Shown: positions 9,804 through 17,029 of the stretch, piece by piece
Position numbering within the stretch: position 1 is the first letter of the stretch
Layout of the letters: each line of letters starts with the position of its first letter
DNA from: Candidatus Gastranaerophilales bacterium
GTDB lineage: Bacteria; Cyanobacteriota; Vampirovibrionia; Gastranaerophilales; Gastranaerophilaceae
Direction: 5' to 3'
Assembly (NCBI GenBank): GCA_905234865.1
Contig: CAJOJE010000001.1
Coordinates: forward strand, 240,021 to 304,020
Length of the DNA stretch: 64,000 bases
Notes under the pieces: model-generated
Database searches by the model: none
Seen by the model: the letters and a program-made list of their open reading frames with translations, nothing else
What the model was told of the DNA's origin: nothing
Position numbers and translations under genes: made by a program

Positions 9804-10766
9804 TCATGAGTTATGTATAAAATTTTCAGCGACCAAAAGGGCGGAAGCAAATATTTTCTCATCGTGAAGAAAATTTTTGTTATCAATAAACTCTTTTACG
9901 ATTTTTCTTGCATAAGAACCTGCCGCAAATCCTGACACATCCAATTCGCAAAGTTTTGCAAGCTTCATGGTTTTAGAATTTGTACCACCTGACACAATTA
10001 CATAAGGAGTAATGTTTGCCTTTAAAACAATATCAGCCGCGGCAACCGCTTGCAAAGTCGTTTTGTAATCATCTTTTCCGCCTGACATCGGAGCGCCGTC
10101 AGCTTGTACCATAAACATATTGTCGCAAAAATTTTTCATCGACTTCAATCGAGCAATTAATCTTTCGTCACCGAGTTTTGACCTGTCAAGACAAACACTT
10201 AAAGAACCCTTGAAAAGTTTGGTTATAATTGACCATCCTTGCATAACCTCATCTTCATTATCTGTTATTGTATGGTACTCTATGCAGTCAATCCCTTCTT
10301 TAATCAGAGGCGGTAAGATTTCAGAAAAAGAAATTTCTTTTGAATATTTTTCTATTGCTCGATTTGGGCAAACATCAGCGCATTTTGCACAGCCTATGCA
10401 ATTATTTTCATCAACAGAAGTTATATTATCAACTGTTTTTATTGCTCTTTGAATACAAACTTTTTCACACTGTCCGCAAGATGTGCATTTTTCAGAGTTG
10501 ATTTTGTATTTTGATAAATGCGGGTCATTTTTTGTTCCGATTGAAACACAAATAAAGCATTCATTTTCTTTTCCCGCAAATTTTATTCCTTTTTTAGCCG
10601 CTCTAACCGCCTCAACGGAAGCATTCAAATCAAAAAAGCGACATCCTGCGGCGGCATATAAAGCACAAAGTTTTGTGATTTCGTCATAATTTCTATTTCC
10701 TGCACCGCAAATTAATTTGAAAACTTTTTTTGATTTAAGGAAAGATTCTAAAGAAGGTATGGACAT
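9804..10766 (-). CDS. ldpA: LdpA-like (light-dependent period A) bis-[4Fe-4S] protein
   Basis: 320 aa. The N-terminus FKLICGAGN followed by an aldolase-like stretch (LYAAAGCRFFDLNASVEAV), then VSIGTKNDPH, mirrors the cyanobacterial LdpA pattern. Two ferredoxin motifs follow: C94-x2-C97-x2-C100-x3-C104 and C123-x2-C126-x2-C129-x3-C133. The C-terminal half has VSGGTNSKTMKLAKL and GSYARKI, also LdpA-like. In cyanobacteria LdpA senses redox state and tunes the circadian clock to light; that role cannot apply as such here, since no photosynthesis or kai gene is visible. I chose ATG 10766 because AAAGGG lies six bases upstream; a TTG seven codons earlier is the alternative. It is a single gene. Confidence 0.82.
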   Translation of the reverse strand: MSIPSLESFLKSKKVFKLICGAGNRNYDEITKLCALYAAAGCRFFDLNASVEAVRAAKKGIKFAGKENECFICVSIGTKNDPHLSKYKINSEKCTSCGQCEKVCIQRAIKTVDNITSVDENNCIGCAKCADVCPNRAIEKYSKEISFSEILPPLIKEGIDCIEYHTITDNEDEVMQGWSIITKLFKGSLSVCLDRSKLGDERLIARLKSMKNFCDNMFMVQADGAPMSGGKDDYKTTLQAVAAADIVLKANITPYVIVSGGTNSKTMKLAKLCELDVSGFAAGSYARKIVKEFIDNKNFLHDEKIFASALLVAENFIHNS

Positions 10767-10854
10767 TTTTACCCTTTTGTCGACCAATAAATAATATAAA
10801 AACTATATTAAAATTAACACAACAGTACAAAGTTTAACAAGTTATACTCAAATT

Positions 10855-11520
10855 TTATTTTACTTCATTACATTCATTGATTAAAAAATTTTGAATTTCA
10901 TTTGGTGTATTTGCAATAAATATGCTGTCATATTTTTGAGCATCAGATACACTTTTAAAACCAAAGCCGTAAGTAACGGCAATAAATTTAATACCGAGTT
11001 TTTGACTTGCCAGTGCATCATGAAAACTGTCACCAATCATAATTGTTTCAGAGCATGCTGCAGAAATGGAATTTACGCAATTTTGAAGAACATCCGTTTT
11101 GGTAAGTTTATTTTCATTATCAGCTCCGCAAATTGAATTGAAATATTTATCCAGTTTAAAATGCTCCATAAGACTTATTGCATAATCTTCTCTTTTGTAA
11201 GTCGCAACTCCGAGTTTACAGCCTTCTTTTTTTAAAGAATCCAAAAGCTCATAAATCCCGTCATAAACAAAAGCCTTATACACATCGCCTTCTGAATAAA
11301 TTTTTCTGAAATGATTTGCAAACAGTTGTGCCTTTTCATCATCAAGGTTGTATATTCTTTTAACACTGTCTTGAATCGGAGGCCCTATAAAACTTAAAAG
11401 TTCATTTTTGGATAAGTTGTGGAGGTTGTAATACTCAATAGTAGAGGTTACTGATTGCAATACACCTTCAGTCCCGTCTATAAGGGTTCCGTCAACATCA
11501 AAAACTACCGATTTATTCAT
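10855..11520 (-). CDS. HAD-family phosphatase (Gph/PGP-like)
   Basis: 221 aa. Motif I VFDVDGTLIDG is at residues 4-14 (nucleophile D6, acid D8), a helical cap follows, then motif II/III VATYKREDY and motif IV MIGDSFHDALASQ. These are the features of small-molecule phosphatases of the phosphoglycolate-phosphatase/PpaX type. It is the last gene of the minus-strand sugar operon and begins one base after the aldolase stop codon, with GGGGG as ribosome-binding site. A role removing a phosphate from an 8- or 9-carbon sugar acid, as KdsC does, is likely but inferred from position. Confidence 0.8.
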   Translation of the reverse strand: MNKSVVFDVDGTLIDGTEGVLQSVTSTIEYYNLHNLSKNELLSFIGPPIQDSVKRIYNLDDEKAQLFANHFRKIYSEGDVYKAFVYDGIYELLDSLKKEGCKLGVATYKREDYAISLMEHFKLDKYFNSICGADNENKLTKTDVLQNCVNSISAACSETIMIGDSFHDALASQKLGIKFIAVTYGFGFKSVSDAQKYDSIFIANTPNEIQNFLINECNEVK

Positions 11521-11521
11521 T

Positions 11522-13129
11522 TTAAACCCCCGTTTCATAATCAGATTTTGTTAAAAATTCAATTTTTGGTTCTTTATCGAATGAATTTAAAAATTTTGCA
11601 ATTTCATCAACAACATTATTTGATACATCCTGATTATAGAATTGTAAATCCGTATCATAATAATTGGGTTTAAAACCGGAGAAACCGTCAAATCCTGCCA
11701 AATAAACCTTTTTAACCTTTGATTCGGTTAATAACTTCATAAGCAAAAATATGGCAGTATCGCCAATCGGAGAAGTTTCATCCGTTAAATCCGAATAATT
11801 AACAACGTAATCAGCGTCATAGCTTTTTTCAATATTATTGGTAATGATTGTTTTTGTTTTTAAATCAGCCTTTTTATATATGCCCATAAAATGACTGTAA
11901 CGCTTTGCGTTACTTATAAAAACGTAATCGGTGTCAAAAAGATTGCATAAATGATTAACAGAAATTGTTACGGCATTTTTATCATCAATATAAGATTTTA
12001 TTTTGTCATATTCTTGCTTGATTGAGCTGCCGGGCCCGATTAAAACAACTTCTTTTGCACTTAATTTATCTTTCAAGTCACCGTATGTCCTGTTATCGGC
12101 ATGATTTCTGTTTTGATATTGTGTATATAATTTTTGGATGTGCTCTTTATCAAATGTTAAAGCATGCGCAGGAGAAACTTGAGATAGGATATAGTTTATA
12201 TCTTTTGTTCCAAGCATATTTTTTTCTTCCAAAAACTTAACGTAATTGGGATGACACTTATTAGAAGCCGAAAGAAAATAAGATAAATTGTATCCCCAAG
12301 TGCAGCTTTTTAAATATTTTAAAATATACAATTCTATTGCATTTAAAATCTCGGACACATCATAGCTTTTATTATAAAACTCGTTTAGATATCGAGTAAG
12401 TAACTCCGTATTGCAATTACCCGCAGATTTTCCCATGCCATACAAAGCAGAATCAATAAAAATATTTCTGTTTGTTTTAACTTCTAAAAGCTCGCAAGAA
12501 TTAGAAAAAGCAAGTTGAAAATTATTATGAGCATGATGAGCTATTGATATTGACGGTTTTAAATTCGTATCCAATAAATAAAAATATTTTAAAAGCCTTT
12601 CTTTGTGCAAAAGTCCGTAAGTATCAACCAAGGCCATGGAATAAGGTTCAAGATTGTTTACCATATCAATCAAATCCAACATTTCTTTATCCGAATAAGT
12701 AGTAATAGATGTGGGATTAACAAAAACTTTATACCCCTTGTCTTTAAGCATGTAGCAAAAGTCAACAGCCTCCTTTATTCTATGCTTCTTAAAAGGTACT
12801 CTGATACCGTCAATAAAATCGTTATCTTTGTGTTCGGCAAAATTATCAATCGAGCAATGCCCGTCATCCAATAGTCCTGTGGTCATTGCAGTAATAAAGG
12901 TGTTATTTTTGGACTCGTTCTTGTAAAAATCGCAAATTGACTCGGTATTGGGATATATGGCTCTATTTTTATCATAAGGCCTTCTGTCATCCAAAAAACC
13001 TACCTCGATAGCTTCTAAATTTGCCTTAACAAGCTTTCTAAAGATACTCAATATGGAATTTTGCCCAAATTCCCAATCATTGAGGTATCCTCCGTCACGA
13101 AGCGTGCAATCAAGAACATTAATTTTCAT
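11522..13129 (-). CDS. HMGL-like aldolase fused to an MptE/DUF115-like domain
   Basis: 535 aa. Residues 1-290 form a DRE-TIM metallolyase of the HMG-CoA lyase / 4-hydroxy-2-oxovalerate aldolase type: DCTLRDGGYLNDW (R11, D12) at the start, and ISIAHHAHNNFQLA supplying metal-binding histidines near residue 210. From about residue 355 a second domain begins (VVLIGPGSSIKQEYDKI, then VSVNHLC-like and DYVFISNAKRY). It resembles MptE/DUF115-type sugar or pterin-nucleotide-binding domains and recurs in the gene at 16226. The ATG at 13129 has GAGG six bases upstream and overlaps kdsB by 11 bases. It could make or cleave a ketose or ulosonic acid C-C bond; the substrate is unknown. Confidence 0.78.
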   Translation of the reverse strand: MKINVLDCTLRDGGYLNDWEFGQNSILSIFRKLVKANLEAIEVGFLDDRRPYDKNRAIYPNTESICDFYKNESKNNTFITAMTTGLLDDGHCSIDNFAEHKDNDFIDGIRVPFKKHRIKEAVDFCYMLKDKGYKVFVNPTSITTYSDKEMLDLIDMVNNLEPYSMALVDTYGLLHKERLLKYFYLLDTNLKPSISIAHHAHNNFQLAFSNSCELLEVKTNRNIFIDSALYGMGKSAGNCNTELLTRYLNEFYNKSYDVSEILNAIELYILKYLKSCTWGYNLSYFLSASNKCHPNYVKFLEEKNMLGTKDINYILSQVSPAHALTFDKEHIQKLYTQYQNRNHADNRTYGDLKDKLSAKEVVLIGPGSSIKQEYDKIKSYIDDKNAVTISVNHLCNLFDTDYVFISNAKRYSHFMGIYKKADLKTKTIITNNIEKSYDADYVVNYSDLTDETSPIGDTAIFLLMKLLTESKVKKVYLAGFDGFSGFKPNYYDTDLQFYNQDVSNNVVDEIAKFLNSFDKEPKIEFLTKSDYETGV

Positions 13130-13859
13130 TACCGACCTCATTTTTAATAATTTTAATGACCATATCCAAATCTTTTTGAGTATCTACGGATAAGCTTTTA
13201 ACGTTTTCGGCAACAATAAACTTTAAGGTTTTTCCCCAATCGGTAAATCTTAAAATATCAATACCTTCAATTTTTTCAAAAATTCCCGGAGTCGAATTTG
13301 CAAAAAAATCAAGCATTTTTTTATTGTAACCGATTATACCGACATGCTTGTAATAATCAAAATCAAGTGATTTAAAAGGATACGGAATAGGGGTTCTTGA
13401 CATATATAAGCAATTATAGTCGTTATCAAACACAACTTTAATATTAGAATTATCCATAACTTCAACAGGATTTGTCATTTTAGTAATAATGTTTGTACCG
13501 AATTCGACATCTTGAGGAATGATATCAGGAACTGCCATTGTTAAAAGTTCATACTGTATTAAAGGTTCATCGCCGTTTACTTGGAGATAAAAATCGGCTT
13601 GAATTGTTTGAGAAACTTCCTGTAATCTGTTTGCGGCAGTATTATGAGTACCTGTCATAACGGAGGGGATATTATACTGATTGCAGCATTCGACAATTCT
13701 TTCATCATCTGTTGCAACAACGATGTCGTCGATTTTTTTAGCCATCTTGACCCTGTTGTAAACCCACCATATCATAGGTTTACCGCATATATCTTTTAAA
13801 GGCTTACCCGGCAATCTCGTTGAAGCATATCTTGCAGGTATTACAGCTACTGTTTTCAT
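13119..13859 (-). CDS. kdsB: KdsB-type CMP-sugar-acid synthetase (3-deoxy-manno-octulosonate cytidylyltransferase family)
   Basis: 246 aa, the normal KdsB length. The nucleotide-binding N-terminus VIPARYASTRLPGKPL is at residues 6-21, followed by VVATDDERI and the VNGDEPL metal/CTP motif near 95. It activates a 3-deoxy-2-keto sugar acid with CTP. No other Kdo gene (kdsA, kdsD, waaA) is in the window. Because it sits inside a cluster with a ThDP enzyme, an aldolase and a second cytidylyltransferase, it may act on a Kdo-like sugar rather than on core Kdo. AGGAG precedes the ATG at good spacing. Confidence 0.88.
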   Translation of the reverse strand: MKTVAVIPARYASTRLPGKPLKDICGKPMIWWVYNRVKMAKKIDDIVVATDDERIVECCNQYNIPSVMTGTHNTAANRLQEVSQTIQADFYLQVNGDEPLIQYELLTMAVPDIIPQDVEFGTNIITKMTNPVEVMDNSNIKVVFDNDYNCLYMSRTPIPYPFKSLDFDYYKHVGIIGYNKKMLDFFANSTPGIFEKIEGIDILRFTDWGKTLKFIVAENVKSLSVDTQKDLDMVIKIIKNEVGNEN

Positions 13860-13877
13860 TATTTTTCTCCTACTAAA

Positions 13878-15477
13878 TCAACTATTAAGCAACTTTATGA
13901 TTTCATCCGATAATTCTTGGTTTAAAAACGGCTTCATATCTTTTTCGTTCCAGTTCATTTTTGGAATCAAAAGAGTATCTTCGGGCAACAATATATTTAT
14001 TAAACAAGACTCATTATCATAAAACCAATCCGAATATTTATCAAGCTCGGTATAATTATCAATCGTGACGGCTTTTATGTCGTATGCTTGAGCAACATTT
14101 GTAAAATCCGGTACGGAATATCCGCTCGAGCCGTTTGTAATACAATATCTGCCTTGAAAAGTTCCTGCTTGGATTTCACTGATTTTCCCGAGCGCTCTGT
14201 TATTTATAACCAATATTTTTATAGGCAATTTATCGGCGGCAACAGTTTGAAGTTCTTGAATATTCATTTGCAAACCTCCGTCGCCCGTTATGCAGTACAC
14301 AATTCCTTTATTTAAAAAATATGAAGCACCTATGGCATAAGGCAAACCACAGCCCATTGAACCATAGCCGCCGCCAATTAAGATTCTTCCTTTATTTCCC
14401 TTTAAGATAAGACTTTGAGCAGCCCAGCACTGGTTTTGACCGACATCAATCGCAACAATGGGGTTTTTAGGCAAAAGGGAAGAAATTTTTTCTATACAAT
14501 AATTGCCAATTTCCTTATCATGATTTAATAACAGTTTCTTTGCCCGGTGACATTTATCATTCCAATCCGAATAATTCGGAATATTTTCCTCAAGCAATTT
14601 AAAAAGGAATATTTTAGCATCCGTTAAATATTTAACTTCGTCGGTTTTAATGTAGCGACTCAATTCATATTCGTCAATATCAGCTCTGATTAATTTGGCT
14701 CTGGGTGCAAAAAATTCGGGTTTATTGCCGATTTGTCTGAGTCCCAGTCTGGCGCCGACCGAAATAACCAAATCCGCTTCTTTTACTATCATGTTAGCGA
14801 TACGGTTACCGTAAACTCCGATAAATCCGAGTTTATCATCATCTTGAACTAAGTCAACGGCATTCATCGTTGTTAATACGGGTATTTTGGTTTTTTTGTA
14901 AAACTTATAAAGCAAATCGGAAGCTCCCGATTCCCTAACGCCGTTACCCGCAATTAATATCGGTCTTTTGCAAGTTGAATGGAAAATCAATTACAACCCC
15001 TCCTTTTCTGCCTAATGTTGCAATATTGTAGAGCCTTGATACGGTTTCCGGAAACGATTCCGCTTCCGACGGAGTAATCGAGGATTTAGTTATGCTCCTG
15101 GTCAACGAAACAATGTCCATTTCCTGAAAGCCGTATTGCCTGACACCTGAATACCCCTTTTGTTCGGTTGTAGGAATATTACCGCAAATACCGATAAGAG
15201 GAATGCCGTCAAACCAAGCATCTGCCAATCCGCCAAGCGCATTAACGGCTCCGGGTCCCGACGTTGTAAAATAAACCCCGGGCTTATTCGAAACTCTGGC
15301 ATATCCGCATGCCGCAAAAGAACATCCCTGTTCGTTGTAGCAAATATGAACGTTTATCTCGTCTTTACGCTTATACAGAGCATCTATAAAAGGTGTAATA
15401 TACCCTCCCGAGTAGCCGAAAATATCGGTTACTCCATGGTTTATAAGAAAATCTACCAAATACTCGGAGCAATTCAT
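13878..15477 (-). pseudogene. ThDP-dependent enzyme (acetolactate-synthase-like), split by a frameshifting deletion
   Basis: Two overlapping reading frames together encode one ThDP enzyme. 15477-14944 (177 aa) is the PYR domain, with the catalytic glutamate in YNEQGCSFAA and GPGAVNALGG. 14990-13878 (about 370 aa) holds the central domain (RPILIAGNGV) and the PP domain with the GDGGLQMN ThDP/Mg motif. The frames change near 14962-14980. The usual 30-40 residue linker between PYR and central domains is missing, so the break looks like a deletion, not a single-base error. ATG 15477 overlaps the upstream stop (TAATG). The intact parent could condense pyruvate with a sugar aldehyde or ketone, as AHAS-like YerE does. 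If the sequence is right the gene is probably dead; two-chain expression is a less likely option. Confidence 0.75.
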
Positions 15478-16166
15478 TATTTGTTCTCCTTATTGTTACA
15501 ATTAAACTTATTATCAAAACCCTTCAATTCACGATAAACGGCATTGGCAATAAAAAAATCTTCAGGATAATCAATATCTATTGCTTCGATTGCATTTACT
15601 TCTTTCATATAGGGGTTTATGCCCGTTCGTCTGCCGTATTTTTGAAATACATCTTTTATAAAAACGTAAGAAATCGGAGCCTCGGCATATATTGCAGGTA
15701 AATCTTGCGTTCTCGGTATTGAATTGATGTTATAATTTAAAGGCTTATTTTCTTTCCAAAGAAAGCTTCTGACGGGCGATACGCAAAAAGCGCTGTCAAA
15801 TTTTCCGCTTTTAACTTTTTCAATACAGGTATCAATTGTTTCGGATTTTGCAAACGGGGATGTTGCATGTGCGTTAACATAAATATCGGCATCAACAACT
15901 TTGATAAACTCTTTTATGATATCATTTGCATTAATATTATCTCCGTTTAAATATTCGGGTCTTTTAAGAAAATTTGCCTCGGGAAGAACAAATTCGCAAA
16001 TATGCTCGTCTGAACAATATACATAGACATCATCAATATTTTTTGCTTCTAAACAGGCTTTTTGTATAAAAGTCATTAACGGCGTACCGTCAAAAAAGGT
16101 TTTTAAATTCTTTAATGCAAGTCTGCCACTGTTTATTTTTATCGGTATTAAAGCAACTGTTTTCAA
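15477..16166 (-). CDS. Acylneuraminate (NeuA)-like cytidylyltransferase
   Basis: About 229 aa. The N-terminus TVALIPIKINSGRLALKNLK is a variant of the NeuA/KdsB CTP-binding loop with the R-x-x-x-K spacing. VYCSDEHI and the INAND/VNAHATSPF region match CMP-sialic acid synthetases. It would activate a nonulosonic acid with CTP. I prefer the TTG at 16166, which aligns the N-terminus with the family and has GGAA upstream; another TTG at 16199 would add 11 residues. It is coupled to the ThDP gene by a one-base TAATG overlap. Two CMP-transferases in one operon suggest two different acidic sugars, or that one has a new substrate. Confidence 0.78.
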   Translation of the reverse strand: MKTVALIPIKINSGRLALKNLKTFFDGTPLMTFIQKACLEAKNIDDVYVYCSDEHICEFVLPEANFLKRPEYLNGDNINANDIIKEFIKVVDADIYVNAHATSPFAKSETIDTCIEKVKSGKFDSAFCVSPVRSFLWKENKPLNYNINSIPRTQDLPAIYAEAPISYVFIKDVFQKYGRRTGINPYMKEVNAIEAIDIDYPEDFFIANAVYRELKGFDNKFNCNNKENK

Positions 16167-16225
16167 TAGATTTATTCCATTTCCGTTAAAATATTTCAAT
16201 CTTTTGGATGAAGCAATTATATATT

Positions 16226-17029
16226 TTATTCCTGATATATATCTGTAAATAACCCTTTTAACCCGACGGGATTAATTGATATTATCTCTGTTTCCGGATA
16301 CCAAATATCGGCAAATTTTTTAATTTTAAACCATGCCCTGTATAAAAAATCCACATGTTCTTCTTTTTTGTCTTTTTCGTTAAAATATCCTTTTGAACAA
16401 TCACAACCCACAAGATAAATTCTCTTAGGATTGGTATAGAGAGCAAACTGCATGGCTGAACCGGCAACAGAATTAGCTGTCGCTAAAGGAGCAGAAGCAA
16501 TATCCATGTGGAAATTAAAATCAAAATCTCTAAAATTATTAAAAATACAGTATCTTTTCGCACCTAAACGAAGTGCAACGGATTCAGGAACGGTAGCCTT
16601 ACCTTCATAGGTATAATCTTGTATAATTCCAAAAAATTTGTCGGTATTTTTAAATCTTTCATCGCTTAATTCATTTATATAATCTTTTACCGCAATATAA
16701 TCCTGCATAAAAAAGTATTTAAAATGTATGTCTTTTCTAAAAACAGTCCTGTTTAATCCGATATTTAAAACATTCTCAAGAGGTTTATAATTATTAAGAG
16801 AAGGTCCCGGAGCAATTATTGCAACGTCTTTCCCGTAATTGCAATTTTTGTATTTTTTGAAAGCATCTTCATGTATTTTTTGTGCTTCAAGAAGATCGAC
16901 AATATCAAGACGAAGAGTATTTACCAAATCACGTCTTTTCATCTTCATAAAGTAACAAGGTTCGCACAATCTTCCGTCTTGTACTTCATTATAAATAAAT
17001 TTTCTAATTTTAGAAATAATATTTATCAT
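16226..17029 (-). CDS. MptE/DUF115-like putative glycosyltransferase
   Basis: 267 aa. The core begins with VAIIAPGPSLNNYKPL (about residue 70), a glycine/proline nucleotide-binding loop like that of MptE/DUF115 proteins and some sialyltransferase-like enzymes. Later come NSVAGSAMQFAL and RIYLVGCDCSKGYF. The same fold type seems to form the C-terminal domain of the aldolase fusion in this operon. It may transfer the CMP-activated sugar made by its neighbours; this is inferred from context. It is the first gene of the minus-strand operon. It has no Shine-Dalgarno sequence, but TAAAAT lies exactly six bases before the ATG. Confidence 0.6.
   Translation of the reverse strand: MINIISKIRKFIYNEVQDGRLCEPCYFMKMKRRDLVNTLRLDIVDLLEAQKIHEDAFKKYKNCNYGKDVAIIAPGPSLNNYKPLENVLNIGLNRTVFRKDIHFKYFFMQDYIAVKDYINELSDERFKNTDKFFGIIQDYTYEGKATVPESVALRLGAKRYCIFNNFRDFDFNFHMDIASAPLATANSVAGSAMQFALYTNPKRIYLVGCDCSKGYFNEKDKKEEHVDFLYRAWFKIKKFADIWYPETEIISINPVGLKGLFTDIYQE

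Follow-up and report, generated by a model that had tools for sequence, protein, structure and literature searches.

We favour, with moderate confidence, the interpretation that a minus-strand operon in a Candidatus Gastranaerophilales genome (assembly GCA_905234865.1, here G000; 1.87 Mb on 22 contigs) makes a cytidine monophosphate (CMP)-activated 3-deoxy-2-ulosonic acid for a surface polysaccharide, with a metal-dependent HMGL aldolase in place of the phosphoenolpyruvate (PEP)-dependent synthases KdsA and NeuB. The operon lies at positions 10,855–17,029 of the window, by which we mean the whole 64,000-nucleotide stretch analysed (contig CAJOJE010000001.1, positions 240,021–304,020). Profile searches with Pfam and NCBI models recovered there, all on the minus strand, every gene family named in a preliminary description of this DNA, in the transcription order MptE-like protein, NeuA/PseF-like cytidylyltransferase, thiamine diphosphate (ThDP) enzyme (two open reading frames), KdsB-like cytidylyltransferase, HMGL aldolase fusion and HAD phosphatase, followed by an LdpA-like protein. 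That description had proposed a new way to make a CMP-activated sugar acid in which aldolase and ThDP enzyme both build the carbon chain; the aldolase half of the proposal is plausible, with aldolase, phosphatase and CMP-transferase genes recurring together across genomes, and the ThDP half did not hold up.

Results

The aldolase gene (11,522–13,141, minus strand) encodes an N-terminal HMGL (DRE-TIM) domain of about 345 amino acids (PF00682), to which an MptE/GT42-like domain appears to be fused at the C terminus. Homologues at E = 1 × 10−20 or better were found in 148 of the 288 genomes of the same family. A pattern search across GTDB species genomes, with an alignment as query, yielded at least 572 matches, and the best 80 of these include Lachnospiraceae, Bacteroidales, Paenibacillus, Treponema, Selenomonas and metagenome-assembled genomes (MAGs) of Methanomassiliicoccaceae. 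The loci analysed were these 80 most window-like matches together with relatives picked from the window's own family, and 97 fused-aldolase loci were assigned to classes by the partner genes found within 8 kb of the aldolase. A cytidylyltransferase was present in 42 of the 97 loci and a ThDP enzyme in 51, with both occurring only in the window (Fisher P of about 1 × 10−20, uncorrected). In 39 of the 42 loci with a cytidylyltransferase, its gene is the immediate same-strand neighbour of the fused aldolase, and this recurrence is far above chance. Such adjacency, which extends across phyla, speaks against the idea that the operon is merely shared, with the cytidylyltransferases serving one sugar and the aldolase an unrelated one, whether CMP-activated or of another kind; the two cytidylyltransferases of the window, and the swapping of NeuA and KdsB types between loci, would fit that arrangement, but we regard it as very unlikely.

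What recurs is the fused aldolase together with a HAD phosphatase and a cytidylyltransferase of KdsB- or NeuA-like type, a set found in Gastranaerophilaceae, Bacillota and Bacteroidota and on Leisingera plasmids; Robinsoniella peoriensis and Leisingera sp. NJS204 are cultured strains in which it is intact. The neighbourhood search suggested in the preliminary description thus bore out this core, but the full set, including the ThDP enzyme, was seen in no other of the 97 loci. The Leisingera plasmids are annotated with aldolase, 'KdsB' and HAD in that order, all contiguous, even though the aldolase is only 20.6% identical to that of the window; of all the evidence, this recurrence at such a distance argues most strongly for a single pathway of the three genes. 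The HAD phosphatase of the window (10,855–11,538, minus strand; PF13419, E = 6 × 10−37) has counterparts near the aldolase in 23 of the 42 cytidylyltransferase loci, and in both classes many loci have a HAD gene next to the aldolase fusion. In a Paenibacillus locus (L137), an inositol-monophosphatase-family gene occupies the HAD slot, which is what a need for phosphate removal would predict. NeuA/PseF-like relatives, 41–46% identical, directly adjoin the aldolase in Bacillota loci (for example, L137, L143 and L159), and because the adjoining enzyme may be either KdsB-like or NeuA-like, the two types can replace each other. Two further loci (L038 and L039) carry two fused aldolases and several cytidylyltransferases in tandem, where two related acids are perhaps made in parallel.

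The ThDP loci have different partners. RfbH, the CDP-4-keto-6-deoxyglucose 3-dehydrase (CDP, cytidine diphosphate), was found near 29 of the 51 ThDP loci versus 4 of the 42 cytidylyltransferase loci, and a typical ThDP locus reads RfbF-RfbG-RfbH-aldolase-HAD-ThDP-SDR (SDR, short-chain dehydrogenase/reductase); none of RfbF, RfbG and RfbH lies within 8 kb of the window aldolase. The ThDP loci, which occur for example in Clostridium thailandense and Selenomonas artemidis, look like branched-sugar pathways of the erwiniose type, and the products of a single aldolase family appear to leave by two exits, CMP activation or a ThDP enzyme. In a tree of the aldolases from 85 labelled loci, the label changed between cytidylyltransferase and ThDP about five times. 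The window aldolase fell in a clade of 11 (100% support) whose other members all come from cytidylyltransferase loci, and that of a Robinsoniella cytidylyltransferase locus (L087) was nested within the ThDP group, which suggests that lineages have switched exits. Position 135 was the only aldolase residue to separate the two classes, so the exit cannot be read from the aldolase alone. Related HMGL aldolases also occur with RfbH and a split transketolase pair (L055, 4,735–12,084; L181, 5,849–10,017; and in Desulfobaculum bizertense), which suggests transketolase as a third exit, again for branched sugars.

Modelling of the aldolase, which had also been put forward as a check, supported its assignment: the predicted structure (predicted local distance difference test (pLDDT) 89.8) gave, for the N-terminal domain, fold matches to 3dxi (Z = 29.7) and to DmpG (1nvm; Z = 28.2). 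Arg15, Asp16, His203, His205 and Asn207 were invariant in 51 of 51 aldolase sequences, and the metal/pyruvate motif (Arg-Asp and HxH) is present. Since this motif is kept and His21, the general base of DmpG, is replaced, metal and pyruvate binding are likely to be retained and the acceptor side altered. The shared superfamily would also accommodate a Claisen-type synthase (citramalate- or isopropylmalate-like) that serves acyl decoration and is no aldolase, and the replacement of His21 by tyrosine and weaker matches to homocitrate and citramalate synthases point that way; however, the best characterised matches in both sequence and fold are 4-hydroxy-2-oxovalerate aldolases, and an acyl donor requires neither a HAD phosphatase nor a cytidylyltransferase, which makes such a synthase improbable. 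Judged from these models, the HMGL domain is probably a pyruvate-type aldolase. Its reported fusion to an MptE-like domain was only partly borne out: Pfam detected no MptE domain in the window protein, but the C-terminal domain of a relative (L064) matched PF01973 under the cut-off (E = 4 × 10−7) and a profile comparison of the extension with MptE gave a probability of 81% over 58 columns, by which the domain may be weakly related to MptE/GT42 proteins. Its occurrence in loci of both classes means that it cannot simply be equated with the CMP-sugar transferase.

That role may fall to the first protein of the operon, a standalone MptE-like (DUF115) protein (16,226–17,029, minus strand; PF01973, E = 4.9 × 10−7, 30.1 bits, under the Pfam cut-off of 34.6), whose relatives are encoded in 21 of 41 cytidylyltransferase loci versus 0 of 46 ThDP loci. 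A model based on seven sequences (pLDDT 71.6) matched the Maf glycosyltransferase 5mu5 (Z = 13.1), MjHPPK (Z = 11.6) and CstII with CMP (Z = 11.1), and because MjHPPK is among the matches, fold alone cannot separate a transferase from a pyrophosphokinase. We consider the protein a probable CMP-sugar transferase of Maf/GT42 fold, the argument for transfer being its association with cytidylyltransferase loci. In L143 and L107, GT52-family transferase genes lie near the aldolase and cytidylyltransferase.

The two cytidylyltransferases of the operon differ in how clearly they are assigned: the KdsB-like protein (13,119–13,859, minus strand; PF02348, E = 9 × 10−41) passes the NCBI KdsB models TIGR00466 and NF003952, and the NeuA/PseF-like protein (15,477–16,199, minus strand; PF02348, E = 3 × 10−18) reaches 63 bits with the PseF model, under its cut-off of 206. 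The earlier statement that NeuB and KdsA are missing is right for the operon, and no clear NeuB was found genome-wide (apart from weak cross-matches of 25–29 bits that coincide with genes for 3-deoxy-D-arabino-heptulosonate 7-phosphate synthase), but the genome does encode an unmistakable KdsA (contig C7, among unrelated neighbours) and a housekeeping KdsB (contig C8, position 123,242). A separate housekeeping KdsB was present in 14 of 14 genomes tested, and the window KdsB is 32–34% identical to the housekeeping enzymes. The Mg-binding residues Asp97 and Asp226 were invariant in 19 KdsBs from aldolase modules and 10 housekeeping KdsBs. Gln98, a ligand in the product complex of the lipopolysaccharide-pathway KdsB (residue roles from PMC2901514), has an equivalent Gln in 10 of 10 housekeeping enzymes versus 3 of 19 module enzymes, the window having Asn95, a change that a second CMP-Kdo synthetase (Kdo, 3-deoxy-D-manno-octulosonate) would not need. 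On these comparisons, the operon enzyme is best described as an extra paralogue, distinct from the housekeeping CMP-Kdo synthetase. If it were instead a second CMP-Kdo synthetase for a Kdo capsule, like KpsU, with the aldolase and HAD phosphatase serving another sugar, then the KdsA elsewhere in the genome and the two passed KdsB models would be readily understood; we hold this to be unlikely, as half of the loci with this aldolase have a NeuA-like enzyme where the others have KdsB, the Gln98 equivalent is mostly lost and the three genes are contiguous in Leisingera.

The ThDP family is present, as described, but its gene is broken into two open reading frames. An N-terminal fragment (14,944–15,477, minus strand; PF02776, E = 7 × 10−37) terminates at a frameshift in the inter-domain linker, and the middle and C-terminal domains (13,878–14,990, minus strand; PF00205 and PF02775) are read in a different frame. 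The spacing between two conserved motifs is 41–44 codons in eight relatives versus 25 bases in the window, which means that about 100 linker bases are missing and, with them, the common frame. A programmed frameshift was considered and rejected, since a linker of about 33 residues is missing as well. From its sequence, the gene is judged non-functional in this assembly, with deletion and assembly error both compatible. The nearest relatives of the window protein (about 40% identical) are other ThDP enzymes, encoded in polysaccharide loci of the same family, and in a 64-member ThDP tree it grouped with these, outside the group of all 48 aldolase-linked enzymes, on a long branch that leaves its exact place unsure. 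The same family of enzyme recurs in the source genome, where at least three more acetolactate-synthase-like ThDP genes lie next to WbqC-like, aminotransferase or FdtA-like genes in what appear to be polysaccharide loci (L168, 9,183–10,904; L169, 8,579–13,891).

These features bear directly on the proposal that a single CMP-activated sugar acid owes its carbon chain to the ThDP enzyme and the aldolase together. The interleaving of ThDP, aldolase and cytidylyltransferase genes in one operon speaks for it, as do ThDP enzymes able to couple hydroxy-2-oxo acids to ketoses (PMC12247030). Against this, a ThDP enzyme and a cytidylyltransferase occur together in 1 of the 97 loci, the window itself, and in none of the others; the 29 of 51 ThDP loci with RfbH fit YerE/ErwE chemistry; and, with its frameshift, missing bases and place in another clade, no functional YerE-like enzyme was found in the window. 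The proposal is therefore highly improbable, and the window ThDP gene is more readily seen as a bystander that would belong to a different exit of the aldolase products or to another sugar.

Beyond these genes, an LdpA-like Fe-S protein omitted from the preliminary description (9,804–10,787, minus strand; PF12617, E = 1.8 × 10−17) is possibly an operon member, its gene starting 67 bases past the HAD gene on the shared strand. The order LdpA-HAD-HMGL, extended as LdpA-HAD-HMGL-(HpaI aldolase)-ThDP, was seen in five relatives (L064, L065, L187, L188 and L189), and another LdpA is encoded elsewhere in the source genome (contig C3); the recurrence and the second copy suggest that this clock-named protein may serve the sugar pathway. 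In L064, a Gastranaerophilaceae CDP-dideoxysugar locus, the HpcH/HpaI-type aldolase (11,125–11,877) sits between the HMGL fusion and the ThDP gene. Near the operon, a hexapeptide acetyltransferase (17,745) and a flippase-like protein (18,383) fit a polysaccharide locus.

Discussion

From gene content and folds we infer the following substrates, chemistry, direction and order of steps. The HMGL domain would join pyruvate and a phosphorylated sugar aldehyde to give a 4-hydroxy-2-oxo acid (a 3-deoxy-2-ulosonate phosphate, the presumed kind of sugar), the HAD enzyme would remove its phosphate, the KdsB-like and/or NeuA-like enzyme would couple the free acid to CMP, and the GT42/Maf-like MptE protein may pass the activated unit to a polymer. 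In the ThDP loci, the ThDP enzyme would decarboxylate a like 2-oxo acid and couple it to CDP-4-keto-3,6-dideoxyhexose, a scheme that fits the chemistry of ErwE, which uses 4-hydroxy-2-oxo acids, not pyruvate, with CDP-4-keto-3,6-dideoxyhexose to form erwiniose (reviewed in PMC12247030).

The proposed route resembles the Kdo pathway (KdsA-KdsC-KdsB) in its logic of a C3 unit and an aldose phosphate, a HAD phosphatase and a CMP transferase, and its KdsB homologue retains the Mg-binding aspartates; it differs in having a DRE-TIM HMGL aldolase where KdsA would be and a divergent KdsB paralogue with a changed contact residue, and the ordinary Kdo version exists in the same genome. With nonulosonate pathways (NeuB/NeuA, PseI/PseF and LegI) it shares a NeuA/PseF-like cytidylyltransferase and GT42/Maf/GT52-type transferases, but not a clear NeuB-family enzyme. 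The YerE/ErwE branched-sugar pathways (yersiniose, erwiniose and caryophyllose) are approached by the sister ThDP loci, which combine the same fused aldolase with a ThDP enzyme and RfbF/G/H, and ErwE prefers 4-hydroxy-2-oxo acid donors (PMC12247030); the window operon is unlike them in lacking RfbF/G/H and in its broken ThDP gene of another clade. DmpG/BphI 4-hydroxy-2-oxovalerate aldolases share the fold and the RD and HxH metal motif, but are catabolic, are paired with an aldehyde dehydrogenase and lack this C-terminal fusion. The closest solved structure, BVU_2661 of Bacteroides vulgatus (3dxi; 23% identity), covers the N-terminal domain only and is itself an uncharacterised putative aldolase.

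Several observations weigh against a CMP-activated ulosonic acid as the product. No HAD gene lies near 19 of the 42 cytidylyltransferase loci, and the two different cytidylyltransferases in one operon are unaccounted for (more than one occurs in 5 of the 42 loci). The position of the DmpG general base is Tyr in 47 and Phe in 4 of the 51 aldolases, so that acceptor chemistry may differ, and the C-terminal domain, found in ThDP loci too, is likewise unaccounted for. With a cellular KdsA present, the KdsB-like enzyme could be acting on Kdo itself. The loci were chosen as the most window-like of the matches plus family relatives, and the split between cytidylyltransferase and ThDP loci loses significance when shared ancestry is taken into account, because label changes are few (3–5 independent contrasts, each of them neutral or in the expected direction, and underpowered).

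More broadly, and tentatively, at somewhat less than even confidence, the aldolase may represent a widespread, undescribed entry to 3-deoxy-2-ulosonic acids that needs neither PEP nor KdsA/NeuB, its product being either CMP-activated (for acidic sugars) or passed on to a ThDP enzyme (for long-branched sugars), with lineages switching between the exits. Nothing relevant to an aldolase route to ulosonic acids, or to this gene combination, was found in the open-access literature. To our knowledge, the CMP-activated sugar acids of known synthesis are all made by PEP-dependent synthases; the new element here would be a different carbon–carbon bond-forming enzyme reaching a known product class. If this is true, many surface polysaccharides would bear acidic or long-branched sugars behind genes now annotated as 'KdsB' or 'acetolactate synthase', along a route spread over gut Bacillota, Bacteroidota, Gastranaerophilales and Alphaproteobacteria, with the aldolase fusion also in archaeal MAGs, and the aldolase would explain where ErwE-like enzymes, in these loci at least, obtain the hydroxy-2-oxo acids they require.

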